From assembly GCA_002104935.1 (NCBI GenBank), contig MCGT01000001.1, positions 1,629,001-1,693,000 on the forward strand: a stretch of 64,000 nt of DNA. Reading direction: 5' to 3'. The stretch's first letter is position 1; each line of letters opens with the position of its first letter. Below the pieces are notes generated by a model, which did no database searches, had not been told where the DNA came from, and saw only the letters and a program-made list of their open reading frames with translations. Shown here one piece after another: positions 9,693 to 26,391 of this stretch. This stretch comes from Hesseltinella vesiculosa (Eukaryota; Mucoromycota; Mucoromycetes; Mucorales; Cunninghamellaceae). The translations under genes and the position numbers were made by a program.

Positions 9693-9747
9693 GTCACGTG
9701 ATCATGCGCGCGGGAAATGAAATATTTTAATTAGTTCAAAATATCTC

Positions 9748-9819
9748 TCTCAGATAGTATAGTGGTGAGTATCCCCGCCTGTCACGCGGGAGACCGGGGT
9801 TCAATTCCCCGTCTGAGAG
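9748..9819 (+). tRNA. tRNA-Asp (GTC), copy 1
   Basis: A complete 72-nt cloverleaf. Acceptor strands TCTCAGA and TCTGAGA pair, with discriminator G. The anticodon stem-loop is CCCGC-CTGTCAC-GCGGG with anticodon GTC. The T arm is CCGGGGTTCAATTCCCCG and the A box is present (TAGTATAGTGGTGAGTA). There is no intron. A T-rich pol III terminator follows at 9821-9828. The identical tRNA occurs at 10487-10558. Confidence 0.97.
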
Positions 9820-10486
9820 TTCTTTTTTCGCTGTGAATCTTCGCAGCTCGTTTTTTTTTTTTTTTTGTCATAGCTAGGCTCAAACCCATTTTTTTGAGAT
9901 GGACGACCACACCTTTTGCTGTCAGGCGGTATCTTTACTTGTCGTGAACCATGATACCAACGTCTTGCATGCATTACGCGCTGGAGATTACGTACAAAAT
10001 GAGCCAGTCACAGTTCGACTGTTGCCTGTCATCTGATGATCCAGCTTGGTGTTTAGAAATATTGTGCTTTATTTCTTCCTTTCTTTTACCAAGCTCTCAG
10101 ACAGCATTTCATGAGCACATTTCATTTTCAGGCAGCAGGGGCCAGCTGAGAGAAGTGCGTCTGACAAAAAAAAAAAAATCGGTAAATTTTACTGCCACCT
10201 GCGCAGTCAAACGTGATACCTTGGACATGGTAAAAGAAAGGAAAAAAAAACCACGATATCTTTTGGCACCGTGCTGCATCGCTTCAGCAGACGAGCAATG
10301 CGTTTGAGACGTCGGTATCATGGTTCACGACAAGTAAATGCACGGTTTTCCCTGACAGCAAAAGGTGTGGTCCATCTCAAAAGGAAGAGAGGAGCAAGAC
10401 TTTACCCAATCAGGAGCCTACGGTAATTCGGCCGCCGAATTACCGAAACCACAACAGGATTACTTTTGTGTTTCACAAAATATCTG
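9820..10486. repeat. Rearranged flank of tRNA-Asp copy 1, with inverted repeat left arm
   Basis: No gene. The first ~140 bp after tRNA copy 1 (to about 9960) match the 3' flank of copy 2 in direct orientation, including GAGATGGACGA, CTGTCAGG and CTTGTCGTGA. Bases 10221-10379 are a near-exact reverse complement of 10632-10791 on the far side of tRNA copy 2. A 25-bp palindrome (12-bp arms, 1-nt centre) lies at 10421-10445. Confidence 0.8.
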
Positions 10487-10558
10487 TCTCAGATAGTATA
10501 GTGGTGAGTATCCCCGCCTGTCACGCGGGAGACCGGGGTTCAATTCCCCGTCTGAGAG
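10487..10558 (+). tRNA. tRNA-Asp (GTC), copy 2
   Basis: Identical over all 72 nt to the copy at 9748, with intact A and B boxes and anticodon GTC. A T-run terminator begins at 10560. It sits in the spacer of a ~160-bp inverted repeat (arms 10221-10379 and 10632-10791). Confidence 0.97.
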
Positions 10559-21204: not shown

Positions 21205-22481
21205 CCTAGACAAGTTAATGAGAAAAAAAAACAAAAGAAGACAAGGCTACAAAATTTCCGTTGTATTTAAATACGACCCATGGCGAAGCTTCACAGCGCG
21301 ATCGCTTGATCCAACGTGTTCCCAAAATTACCGACGTGGTGTTGAAACCTCGCTTTGCTTGGTAGGAGCTGAGTGGTGCTGGTGTCGTAGTATGCTCCCC
21401 CCGTAATATTGTACCTGTCATGCTGAGTCTTCAATCATCTTGCCAACGCTTGCTGGCGGTGGATGTTGCTAAGGTTGTCCTTCTACGCTATCACTTCAGA
21501 AACGTGTGAATAATTAAGCATAACATGGATGTATAGTGTCTTATGTACGAAACCCATATGCAAATCTCGTTCACACGAAAAAAAAAAAATTGGGCAGGTA
21601 AAGAGTAGGCGGAAATCCACCAAATTGCCCAGCTGGTTTAGGTGACCGGACATCGCAGGCACCGCTGTGCCGTTTTATCAACTTAAAAGACTGCTCATTA
21701 ACCTGACAGCCCAAAAACATCACGTTTTTTTTTTGTCATGACTGTGAGGTAATGTTGAATCATAATTCCTCATCATTCTGTGCACGTATGCAACATTTGG
21801 GGTGAACTGACTTCAACCAGTTTTGCGTTGTGGCTTTTGCTCAGATCGCCTGGCGGTCCCCTGGGCAAAAATGGCCGATTTTTTCAATTTTTTAGCTGGA
21901 CGATCGGAGATGACAGCACGACACTGGCCAAAAGTTGGCTGGGCGATCTTCTCCAATCGACCTGGTTTTTTTTCAGCATCATCATCATTCGTGCTTTTGT
22001 GCGTTTGAGCAAAGTTTCACATCGATCCAGTCACTCAAAAGTGCTGTAGAGCTATAGTGGTTTTTTTTTTTTTGATTTTGAAAAAAAAAATTGGATGGTC
22101 ATAATCAACTTTCGATTTTACACCTTCCTTCATGGAAAAGAGTGTAATCCAATGTCACAATTTGATGAAGTAGCGTCAACAACTTGATCAATACTGCCCT
22201 TGACAGAGTCCTGATTTGATGATCCAGCCGCCAAATGATGGCGCAAATCCAGTAGAGAGGAGTGTCAAGTTCAGCCCGAATGAGCCCTGCTTCGGAGTTT
22301 TAGGCGTTGCTCAGGTTGCACTAGGGAAAAAAAGAAAAATCAGCATCCAATCAAATTGCCCCTTCCCCGTACCCTAACCAAACAATTTTTTTACCTGCAA
22401 AAGCATTAAACCGTTCTTGTCAAGGGACAGACGATAACCTTTTCTAAAAGGTTGCTCTATCTAAAAAAAAATAAAAAATGC
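21205..22481. other. Intergenic region between membrane protein and Fanzor 3' end
   Basis: No protein gene supported. Holds a well-preserved dispersed repeat copy (21885-22135) and the 3' flank of the Fanzor gene with an inverted-repeat-bounded structured segment (22295-22490). A likely 3' UTR intron on the minus strand (22394-22321, GTAAAA...CCCTAG) is visible. Confidence 0.6.
21885..22135 (+). repeat. Dispersed ~200-bp repeat, copy B
   Basis: Near full-length: TTTAGCTGGACGATCGGAG, GGCCAAAAGTTGGCTGGGCG, CTTCTCCAATCGACCTGG, CAGCATCATCATCATTCGTG, TTTCACATCGATCCAGTCAC, TCAAAAGTGCTG, then an AT tract and ATTGGATGGTCATAATCAAC. Together with copies A, D and E it defines the consensus. Confidence 0.85.
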
Positions 22482-22490
22482 CTAAAACTC
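22295..22490 (-). ncRNA. Candidate omega-RNA region at Fanzor 3' end
   Basis: On the minus (transcribed) strand GAGTTTTAGGC (22490-22480), which includes the Fanzor stop codon, is exactly complementary to GCCTAAAACTC (22305-22295). Between them lie a hairpin with 8-bp arms (AACCTTTT/AAAAGGTT, 22436-22453) and a likely 74-nt intron (22394-22321). Just beyond, CCGAA...TTCGG can form another stem. TnpB and Fanzor guides are known to come from the 3' end of the gene and its flank; equating this structure with the scaffold is inference. Confidence 0.35.
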
Positions 22491-25400
22491 GGGGGATGGA
22501 GGGCGAGGGAGGGGACAAAAGGCAAGGAGCCGATGGCGGTGATCAAAATAGTGACGAGCAATGGCAAACATGTTGGACGCAGCGGAAGTGTCACGATCCA
22601 GCACCACTCGGCACAAATCGCAGCGCAAGAGGCCGTATATTTTGCTCCCATCAATGTAAAAAGGCTTGAGCTTGTCATGGCAAATGCAGCAACGCTGTAT
22701 GGATCGATAAAAAAAAATTGAGTCAGTGACCAAGTCTTCACTTCTCTCCACTGCACTTGTTCAGCACCTTGCTGGTGTTGAATTCCCATATGGATACCAC
22801 TAACAAGCGTCCTTGGCTTTGCCGTTCCTCGAGATTGTTGAAGACCAAATTGGATGGCCCAGGTAACTGCTTCTTCAAGGGGGTTGCCACTTTCTTGCCT
22901 TTAAGGCCGTCGCCAAACACAATCATCGGCACACGGTCGGGGGAGGCTACGTGTTTGGTGACTCCGTGGCTCAGTCGCGTAGCTGCCTTCACTGCTGGAG
23001 CAGATCTATAAAAAATAAGGCAATCAGAGGTTTGTTGCCGATCTGAAGGTTGATTCTTTTTTTTTTTTACCGTCGTTCTGTCATTTCAAGGTGAATGCTG
23101 TTGAGCTGACCTTGGACAAATATGCGTTCTTCCTTAAGGTCATTCAAGGTTACTTCAAGACGAGCAAGTTTTTGACCGAGCTGGTACACAGTTGTAGGTA
23201 ATGCTGGTCCAGATGCCGACTTCATGACCTTTTTATAGGACATGATTCGCGTATTCGTGCCTTGTATGGTGCGTTCCAAGGTCGTAAGATTCTGGCGTAA
23301 GGCTTGCGTCGTTTCGTGAAGCTTGAGGGCACGCTTGTGTCTGGCACGCTTGCGTCGTTTTCTCCGATTGCGCTTCGTTTTGGTACGCTTTTCTTTCACA
23401 TACTTGCGCGAGATGCCAGCAAGGACATTTGACACATAGGCTACACCGCGCTGCCTGCCACGATACGCGTTAAACTTGGCGACCGAGTGTTGGTGTCCAT
23501 AAAAGGTGAAGAAAATACCGAGGCGGTCCAGAATGTAGCGACAGCGCTTTTCGTATTCGTGGGGAGATGGATGACGAGGTGGGATGGCGGATTCAATTTG
23601 CTGGTAGCTGAGGGAACGGCCATTGTGTGGGTCCAAAAACATTGTTGTCTTCTTTCGTTGTTCCAACTCTTGCATTCGTTTCTGCGTTCCACATTGTGCG
23701 CGATACTCCCGAGCAGAGACCTTGTAAACAGGAAATGGTTCCCGAGGGGAGGCTTCTGGGAGTGGGTCGTTGCTAGCGGTTGAGACGAGAGACACAGTGG
23801 CTGGGATATCCAGTGACATGAGGCTGGCTTCGTCGTCATCATTATAGAACAAATTTTCTTTTTCCACAAACATAGCACTGTCCACGTCAGGAGTACCAGA
23901 TGCACCTGTTTCCAGTGTTAATGCACCAGTGTCACGCGTAAGTTCTTGCAGCATGCTAAGTGGCTGTCCAGCAGCACCATCACCGTCGTCGTCGCTTTCA
24001 TAGGCGCCTTCATCATAACTGTCGCTGCCATCACCAGCACCATCCTCAGCCTGGATTTGACGGGGGAATGGGGTTCCACAAGCCGCTGTGATAATGGCCC
24101 GTCGGCCAGGGTCCACGGCTGTCATTCGGAAGTGGTCCATGAAGTCGGGTGGCACGTCGTCCATGTGGGGTAACTTGATGGTTGGCCGATTGATCCGGGG
24201 ACGGCGGTGGAAATGGAACGAACATGACACGCCGTCCGACCAAACGAATGCACCAAAAAAGTGCGGGTTGAGCATGATCGACTCCAACATTTCATCTAAG
24301 CTAATTAGAAAAAAAAAAAAGAGAAGGGAAAATAGATGAGATTCGACTACACCTTGCCACCCCACCTCTGCCTTTTACCTTGAAAATCCAAACATGTCCA
24401 TTTTAAACACCTCGAAAAAAATGGGGAGCGATCCCAAGAAGCTAGCCTGATTGTTGTCAGAGGTAGCGGTCGTAGGGGTGGTGGTTGGCCGGGTGCGGGG
24501 CGTAGGACGGGAAGGGCCAGCGACTTGTCGGTCGGCTGCGAACTCTTGACTGGTGTGCGTGTACGACGTGTATTCCGTCAGGCGAGTGATCGTCTTCGCA
24601 GTGATTGGGATTGCTCGGCGATCCAGACCTGGCTCTGGGAGGATGGTGAAGTGAGGTACCTTGACAGGGTTTTCATTTTCTTGGTCCTTGTAATCTTGAT
24701 AAGCAGACGCAATTTGAATCAAGATTTTCAGAGTCATGGTTGGATCTTCTTGCAGCTTTCCTTCGTCAATCAAGCCCATGCCAGGCGGCTTCATAGCCAG
24801 GACTTGTCGTGTGATTAAGGCAATGGCTTCATCGGCAGGCGTGTTCGTGCTTTGCGATTCACCCGTAGAGATGTCATGTGGATGGCTCGGCGAGGGATGG
24901 GTGAGGGATGGTGATGGTGGATGTGGGACATCCAGCGAGGGTGAGTTGTTTTCAGCGGTGGTGGTGGTATGTCACCTATTTTAAAATGCGAAAAAAAAAG
25001 TGAGTTTTCCCCCCCCTTTCCGTTTTACGCTCAGTTCCCAGCTTACCTCTTGTCCTTGGACAGCAAAGAGGAATTTGATGTACTGCTTCACCTTGCGATC
25101 AAACTTTTCGGCCAAGCAATTGGTGTAGGCCGTTTCCAATGCACCAAGACAAGGAGTCAAGGTATCGGCGATAAATTTGTGCCCATGGAAGTGGGCTGGG
25201 TCATAGCGGATGCTAGGGTGGTCGCGAGCAAAGGCCATCCAATGGGAAAGAAGGGAAGGGGGCGAGGGTATACCAGCTGGGTAAGAGAATAAAGGCCGTT
25301 GGCGCAGATGAGGTAATTGTCGAATTCATCAGGGAATGACAGAGCAAAGTGATTCAAAAAGATCTGCACACGCACCAAAATGTTCTTCACGCACTTGCTG

Positions 25401-25944
25401 GTGGCTTCGATGTTTCTTTTGAGTGGCAGAGCGTATGGCAAGTTGACAGCCGCGTCGAAGCCAACCTTTCGAGCAAAAGTTGCATGGCCTGGCATCCATT
25501 TCCGAAGAAAGTCGGCCTTGTTGACTTTGTGCAAGGGACAAGCATGGCTGGCAGCAGTCATGTGACCCATGTTGCCACAGGCCTTGCATGGCCCAATGGC
25601 ATTGGGGTTGCGCTGGTCTTGTTTCTTTTTGCGGCGACCAGCCTGGCGCGCCTCTTGGCGACGGCGTTCTGCTTGGGCACGAGGATCAGCAGACCCAGTG
25701 CCTGAAGCATAAAGTGGTGAGGACAACAATCACTGGTTTCAACGGCTGACTTACGCTCGCGATATATTTTGGCTTGTGTCCAAATAGCAAGGACTTGCTC
25801 TTCGGTAAGTTCCCACTCACCACGTCCGTGCTGAAGAGGGGCCAGATGAACCAACTCTTCTCGTGCACGCGCGAACGATGCGTCGTCCATAAAGCATAAA
25901 GTCTCGTAAAAGGCTTGAAGGTGATCTTTGGGGAAATATTGCAT
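22482..25944 (-). CDS. Fanzor (eukaryotic TnpB-like RNA-guided nuclease), apparent frame disruptions
   Basis: Exons as read: 25944-25755, 25701-25047, about 24975-24379, 24300-23071, 23005-22768, 22694-22482; roughly 1,040 aa. The N-terminus has a zinc-knuckle-like CKACGNMGH...CP. A helical region follows (HWMAFARDHPSI, AYTNCLAEKF). RuvC-I is TAVDPGRRAIITAACG. An Asp-rich insert follows, then a basic coiled coil (about 23090-23400). VFGDGLKGKK precedes RuvC-II (VVSIWEFNTSK). Splicing out 22767-22695 places the zinc ribbon RCCICH...LRCDLC directly after TSK, then RuvC-III LDRDTSAASNM. This order is the TnpB/Fanzor signature. The N-terminal half is not one frame. A G5 tract at 25258-25262 lacks one base for continuity, and the junction 25047/24975 also fails. 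So it is either a decaying copy or contains assembly errors. No transposase is adjacent. Confidence 0.85.
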
Positions 25945-26391
25945 TTTGCTGAACAAGAAAAAAAAAATACAGAAAAGAGAAGGAAAAAAAAAAGAGCAAG
26001 ACGAGAAAATGAGCTTCTCTGCTCACGCTCACACACGCCCTGCTCATTCCTATTATATTAACGCTAATATATTTTTTTAAAAAATGTGTGAACAGATCAA
26101 CTTCTTGTCCAGCTGATGACCAAGCTTACAAATATCATTCCATCATTCAATCTGTGGGTCAAGGCACTCGTAAACATGAAAGCAAACTTCGCTTCAAACT
26201 TCTCAAATTGGCACTGTCCTTGCTCCTGATTTTGTGGATTACTCAGTGAATTGAGCGATGGTAGTGGGTTTAGTGACAAATTCACGTTCTTTTTTCTGAC
26301 TGGCTGCGCTATTTTTTTCGCGACATTTTTCCCGCAGGGTTGGTTGCTCCTTTTTTTTCTTTTTTTCTGTTTTCCCCGTTCTGCATCGTTC
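25945..26391. other. Divergent spacer between Fanzor and coiled-coil gene
   Basis: No coding region beyond TTG-started shadows. Fanzor (minus) and the next gene (plus) diverge here. An acceptor-like TTGTTCAG directly precedes the Fanzor ATG, so a 5' UTR intron is possible. A small palindrome with TATATTA/TAATATA arms lies at 26054-26071. No terminal inverted repeat matching the far side of the Fanzor was found. Confidence 0.5.

Follow-up and report, generated by a model that had tools for sequence, protein, structure and literature searches.

A dead transposon copy with a probable Fanzor1-type nuclease gene in Hesseltinella vesiculosa, and a candidate guide RNA at its right end

A Fanzor signature in a mucoralean genome

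The window analysed here, a 64,000-bp stretch of the genome of Hesseltinella vesiculosa (Mucorales), carries on its minus strand a series of motifs that a first-pass annotation attributed to Fanzor, a eukaryotic TnpB-like RNA-guided nuclease, in a Mucoromycota-like genome. What this gene is, whether it still encodes a protein and how it came to lie here are the questions that the locus raises. The favored answer, at a probability of about 0.88, is that the locus is a dead transposon copy with the gene for a very large Fanzor1-type RNA-guided nuclease, whose intact relatives would use a guide RNA from the right end of the element. The host and the family assignment agree with the annotation: the gene has the fingerprint motifs and a profile match above the cut-off. 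It runs from an ATG at 25944 to 22482 in six exons and five introns:

25755..25944, minus strand: exon 1, placed by its frame and a GTAAGT/CTTCAG intron
25047..25701, minus strand: exon 2, with the zinc-knuckle-like motif; 64 bp absent near 25262, giving a frameshift
24379..24975, minus strand: exon 3; 47 bp near its start absent, present in four of five siblings
23071..24300, minus strand: exon 4, with SDG, the RuvC-I DPG, an Asp-rich stretch and a basic coiled coil
22768..23005, minus strand: exon 5, with the RuvC-II Glu in WEF
22482..22694, minus strand: exon 6, with the CxxC...CxxC ribbon, the RuvC-III Asp and the stop TAG at 22484-22482
25754-25702, 25046-24976, 24378-24301, 23070-23006 and 22767-22695, minus strand: the five introns
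25588-25538, minus strand: zinc-knuckle-like motif (zf-CCHC_6, 19.4 bits, below the cut-off of 22)
24245-24228, minus strand: SDG motif
24119-24102, minus strand: RuvC-I DPG
22788-22768, minus strand: WEF, with the RuvC-II Glu
22694-22671, minus strand: first CxxC
22622-22590, minus strand: second CxxC and DRD

The catalytic series reads DPG, WEF, CxxC, CxxC, DRD, each motif lying where the annotation had placed it. Removal of the intron at 22767-22695 restores the register, as had been proposed, and puts the Glu exactly six residues before the first CxxC; a DPG together with a Glu six residues ahead of a CxxC is the Fanzor fingerprint described in sections of PMC10711439. The CxxC pairs are 19 residues apart and followed by x4-D, one residue over the pattern CxxC-x(12,18)-CxxC-x(4,8)-D in the same sections, and the DPG-to-Glu distance is 418 residues against 120-160 in that pattern, which was written to find TnpBs (PMC10711439). 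At the place of the TDG in the WED domain of Fanzor1, located by order only, the window copy and its siblings (family A) have SDG and a sister family (family B) has CDG. Both the N-terminal zinc-knuckle-like motif and the long Asp-rich and basic coiled-coil insert were recovered as annotated, the insert being common to the siblings and the sister family.

The profile PF07282 (Cas12f1-like_TNB) matches the joined last three exons (24300-22482) with an E-value of 2.3e-6 and 28.1 bits, over the Pfam cut-off of 26.3. The match needs the exons joined, because a six-frame genome search, which scores exons separately, finds PF07282 at 46 places and at 0 of 6 family A copies. For the protein of L030, the sibling that keeps an open frame, the best NCBIfam match is IS607 TnpB at E 0.0068, far under its cut-off, and a search with residues 500-1072 gave no match among 7,980 candidates scored. 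The only relative among 7,993 candidates scored is a hypothetical protein of H. vesiculosa itself, P0001, the one public gene model, which represents the C22-contig sibling. This model uses an intron matching 23070-23006, confirming it for that sibling; it skips the last intron and ends ahead of the zinc ribbon, and the C22 sibling has a 1-nt deletion in the same region. A structure prediction, bearing on the two kinked helices of Fanzor1 REC2 and on the RuvC fold, has a mean pLDDT of 45.6, too poor for use, with long helices at 282-389 of the model.

State of the window copy

The window copy is dead, a pseudogene. After a deletion of 64 bp in exon 2, relative to the five siblings, its frame closes at codon 245, and a further 47 bp, where exon 3 begins, are missing from it and from one sibling; with both gaps it encodes no full protein. 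Neither gap appeared in the first-pass annotation. No combination of GT/GC-AG introns tried gave a continuous frame from 25944 to 22482, and an intron suspected at 25273-25213 was dropped because the siblings explained the broken frame.

Among the six family A copies, only L030 is still open over the full 1,072 codons; each of its five introns has GT...AG, and the last acceptor is ATAAAG instead of ATACAG. The other four siblings stop at codons 32 to 451; L031, considered as an intact copy, was ruled out by a stop at codon 172. All five introns show GT...AG in 6/6 copies, the fourth donor of L032 being GT alone at an alignment gap. Over exon 4, the dN/dS of means is 0.47 in family A (five copies) and 0.29 in family B (12 copies, excluding L034, L036 and L042), so selection acted on the frames during the spread of the families. 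In family B, the locus L048:2636-5533 has a 966-codon open frame that spans, by eye, the places of the first introns of family A, so retained introns would still be translatable there.

That the locus is no nuclease gene, its motifs having come together by chance or belonging to a domesticated gene selected for something else, would fit the broken frame of the window copy, yet it is already contradicted by a profile match over the cut-off, six copies, sister families and purifying selection, and hardly any weight is left for it.

The element and its relatives

The Fanzor1-type gene fills a transposon with defined ends:

22319..26337, minus strand: Fanzor transposon, family A copy, 4,019 bp, limits set by homology among six copies
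22319 and 26337, minus strand: element termini, a 3' end ...TTTTTCCCTAG-TG at 22319 and a degraded 5' end CTGCGGGAAAAA at 26337
26338..26342, minus strand: left copy of a putative 5-bp target duplication, CAACC, a length within the range of chance pairs
22314..22318, minus strand: right copy of the putative duplication, CAACC

The element consists of the gene, a leader of about 390 bp and a trailer of about 160 bp. A genome-wide search for siblings, as the annotation had advised, finds five with common ends, and the six copies are 96.7-99.3% identical in pairs. The suggestion of a "stand-alone or residual copy" thus stands in its second half, the frame being broken, and falls in its first, given the transposon ends, five near-identical siblings and a larger sister family. 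Intact family A siblings start with CACTACGGGAAAAA and finish with TTTTTTCCCCTAGTG. Family B, 45-46% identical to family A over exon 4, has the termini CACTATGGAAAA ... TTTTTTTCCATAGTG; 14 of its elements were followed in full, and a left-end search finds 23 copies at 87% or more. Both families have termini of the CACTA...TAGTG type, the left CACTA being degraded in the window copy. Families of the L003 and L002 types end in ACAG-TA, another terminal repeat. Clustering PF07282 and exon-4 matches within 3.5 kb gives 93 Fanzor-like loci genome-wide, 17 of them found by both probes, a count that takes in fragments and weak matches.

The observation that no transposase is adjacent was borne out in eight flanking frames, three of which match Pfam (kinase, EF-hand, CRAL-TRIO) and five nothing. 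No transposase family matches the L030 protein either. With no transposase encoded inside, the element must depend for its movement on a trans-acting helper or on DNA repair.

The element ends 55 bp ahead of the start codon (26392) of a putative divergent gene and may therefore alter its promoter. Beyond the other end, window positions 21764-22106 are 72-73% similar to two opposite-facing stretches near L031, probably another repeat. A repeat at L007:1993-2700 starts close behind a Fanzor locus and has dozens of matches across contigs (74-100% identity); L007 was unusable as a source of an element end, its flank being this other repeat. Elsewhere in the window, two tRNA-Asp (GTC) genes lie at 9747-9820 and 10487-10558, some 670 bp apart.

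A candidate guide RNA at the right end

Between the stop codon and the host flank, the right end divides into segments of unlike conservation:

22395..22458, minus strand: putative fRNA (omega-RNA) scaffold, 64 nt, behind the stop, drawn as a three-way junction
22321..22394, minus strand: predicted intron-like segment, 74 nt, with a GTAAAA donor, a CTGAT resembling a branch point, a pyrimidine tract, and CTAG 2 nt short of the element terminus
22299..22318, minus strand: flanking host DNA, the would-be guide suggested by parts of PMC10432273 and PMC10711439; its 20 nt are marked arbitrarily

Comparing one sequence of each family, the scaffolds of A and B are identical in 50 of 66 aligned columns (76%), in contrast to exon 4, where comparison of A with B shows saturation at synonymous sites (pS 0.77). 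A genome search finds the scaffold word at 34 sites and a reversed control at 0, and an exon-4 or TNB match lies within 5 kb of 31 of the 34. Two of the three others have left-end DNA like that of family B nearby (G000:C34:242412-243159 and G000:C17:354729-356295) and are likely internally deleted elements. The scaffold can be drawn as two hairpins closed by AAAGC/GCUUU, a fold with weak support: a compensatory change is seen in one of 19 pairs, and z-scores are -1.6, -0.3 and -0.4 for three A and B scaffolds and -2.0 to -3.0 for pieces from three other families. The order of gene, structured RNA, right end and flank is that of published Fanzor guide RNAs, as laid out in sections of PMC10432273 and PMC10711439. 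Conservation and position make the 64-nt segment a likely guide-RNA scaffold.

For an intact relative, it can be inferred that the right end is expressed as RNA and bound by the nuclease (1,072 residues in L030). This RNA would comprise the structured scaffold directly 3' of the gene and then, as guide, the host sequence just outside the element. The nuclease would cleave the empty site that matches the guide, beside a short motif, and cleavage would favor the copying of the element into that site, to the benefit of the transposon. A GCCAR-like motif seen by eye in the left flanks of five of six family A copies might, as a guess, be the TAM of this family.

Is the right end spliced?

The 74 nt between the scaffold and the element end look like an intron. 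GTAA stands directly behind the scaffold in A and B and also in L003, L002, L001 and L007; in the latter four the scaffold was placed by eye with GTAA in view, so this count is biased. If the segment is spliced, the predicted junction would place TG and the host flank directly behind GCTTTTGCAG in family A and GCTTTTATCCG in family B. The RNA would then measure about 84 nt, with a scaffold of about 64 nt, the TG, a flank repeat of 3 nt and a guide of about 15 nt. Sections of PMC11423790 give 75-90 nt for the RNAs of PpFz1 and SpuFz1, near this spliced size, and 150 nt for GtFz1, near the roughly 160 nt of an unspliced RNA here. As a general rule a terminal acceptor was rejected: in L003 and L002 the only acceptor that passes is internal, about 50-60 nt upstream of the end, and L001 lacks one up to its apparent end. 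Splicing of the right end would not hold for every family here. An intron-like right end of this kind did not come up among the papers listed in searches of open-licence full texts.

There is an even chance that the right-end RNA is unspliced, as in published Fanzor1s, that the terminal inverted repeat and duplication belong to the scaffold, and that the final 74 nt resemble an intron by accident, through a CACTA-type repeat. The complement of a CACTA-type repeat naturally reads as pyrimidines and TAG, acceptor-like by itself; sections of PMC10711439 predict the terminal repeat and duplication as scaffold parts in Fanzor1s such as SfAV, and in those of PMC10432273 the S. punctatus RNA goes from the conserved region directly into 14-15 variable nt. 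The acceptor failures of L003, L002 and L001 point the same way, as does the whole 70-74-nt segment of A and B, which aligns better than shuffles (p 0.0005), although a shared pyrimidine tract probably explains this. Against an unspliced RNA, the interior from GTAA to CTGAT is not alignable between A and B (shuffle p 0.63), yet both retain the donor, CTGAT, the tract and an AG 2 nt from the end, and the full set of signals occurs at only 17 of 127,600 window positions on both strands, by criteria chosen after the right ends had been seen. A GTAA that serves as a U1-binding site, preventing an early end of transcription and allowing run-on into the guide with no splicing, would suit its presence in 6/6 families looked at, of which only some have acceptors. 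Given the bias in four of these families, and a branch point and acceptor in A and B that it leaves unexplained, such a role for U1 is quite improbable.

Insertion pattern and possible movers

Twenty elements were followed in full (6 A, 14 B), with termini judged by eye. The right terminus is reached in all 20, with changes beside it in L033, L037, L038 and L042; the left terminus is complete in 8/20 and truncated by 2 to about 27 nt in 12/20. Right flanks start with CAR in 6/6 family A copies and with GA in 13/14 of family B. Exact repeats of the right flank occur at the left junction in four elements, each truncated on the left: L032 (13 bp, though the final 5 may belong to the element), L042 (12 bp), L044 (12 bp in a tandem setting, with 8 bp directly at the junction) and L038 (10 bp). 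When the flanks are taken from different copies, the repeat is at most 7 bp (182 B pairs) and 6 bp (30 A pairs). The remaining 16 elements score 0 to 5, inside this chance range: L045 has 4 bp, L041 has a score of 0 and, by eye, a GAGCTT out of place, and L033, L040, L043 and L046 have no convincing duplication. At L041:2320-2360 the left junction is rearranged, with part of the element's own left end present a second time.

EnSpm/CACTA transposons make target duplications of 2-3 bp. The element is CACTA-like by its ends and is not placed in the EnSpm/CACTA superfamily. An ordinary EnSpm/CACTA transposase acting in trans, with truncated left ends and long duplications as repair accidents, would account for the CACTA...TAGTG ends, for the 3-bp repeats that abut the intact left ends of L030, L031 and L034 (CAA, CAG, CAG) and for the seven matches to its transposase profile, PF02992, in the genome. 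Those repeats are close to the chance mean of 2.7-3.0, however, duplications reach 12-13 bp, and truncation affects 12 of 20 left ends and none of the right ends. Within 10 kb, an exact pattern search finds the terminal repeat at 0/7 PF02992 matches, though several of these lie at contig ends. The pattern is not enriched overall (50 matches against 61 for the reversed control; 24 of the 50 within 300 nt of a scaffold site), and no helper CACTA transposase with a shared terminal repeat was seen by pattern search. This mover has somewhat less than an even chance. The same holds for one-ended insertion, in which the right end joins the target first and the copy extends to a variable left point. 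The complete right and truncated left ends favor it, as do the four repeats of 8 bp or more, above the chance maxima, and a like pattern in Chlamydomonas described in part of PMC3627910, but it gains nothing from the 16 elements no better than chance pairs, among them the four without a convincing duplication.

A joint reading of the right end and the insertions, unlikely on present evidence, would have the nuclear spliceosome make the guide RNA, with the scaffold as exon, the right terminal repeat as intron and the host transcript joined on, and would have the right-anchored, left-truncated insertions with variable duplications arise from Fanzor-made breaks, not from a transposase. If true, splicing would strip from the guide RNA the terminal repeat that transposition needs. 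With recent copies, readable ends and several Fanzor families, this genome makes two questions testable: guide splicing, and Fanzor-made insertions anchored at the right and truncated at the left.

Comparison with known Fanzor systems

PpFz1 of Parasitella parasitica (Mucorales) is also a mucoralean Fanzor1 with an insertion in its RuvC domain, according to sections of PMC11423790. Its 75-nt RNA is near the size expected here if the right end is spliced (PMC11423790); the word "intron" occurs 0 times in that paper. The two differ in that no sequence relation was found among solved Fanzor chains, with one protein or with an exon-4 profile, and the RuvC insert is compared with that of PpFz1 by description only.

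Passages of PMC3627910 describe ROr-4, PBl-3, MCi-4 and MCi-2, likewise Fanzor1 transposons of Mucorales, the first three without a transposase, as here. MCi-2 has fuzzy 5' ends, a likeness to the present elements. The same passages class ROr-4, PBl-3 and MCi-4 as MuDR-like with 9-bp duplications and leave MCi-2 unclassified (PMC3627910), in contrast to the CACTA...TAGTG ends found here. The terms CACTA and EnSpm occur 0 times in PMC3627910, and searches of open-licence full texts returned no paper with Fanzor together with CACTA.

Spu-1, the SpuFz1 element of Spizellomyces punctatus, resembles the present families in its many copies, inverted repeats and right-end RNA, and in that sections of PMC10432273 report no transposase of its own. 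It differs in its 134 gene-less ghost elements (PMC10432273); here three of 34 scaffold sites are without an exon-4 or TNB match within 5 kb.

The closest likeness in insertion pattern is to CRe-1, 2 and 3 of Chlamydomonas reinhardtii, which have intact 3' ends, truncated 5' ends and duplications of variable length, as here, a pattern that parts of PMC3627910 describe as one-ended transposition of Helitron-borne Fanzor1 elements. Their Helitron2 ends and TTTT target (PMC3627910) differ from the terminal inverted repeats and the right flanks of CAR (A) or GA (B) in H. vesiculosa. A like insertion pattern in two unlike carriers, Helitron-borne in the alga and CACTA-like here, would point at their shared component, Fanzor.
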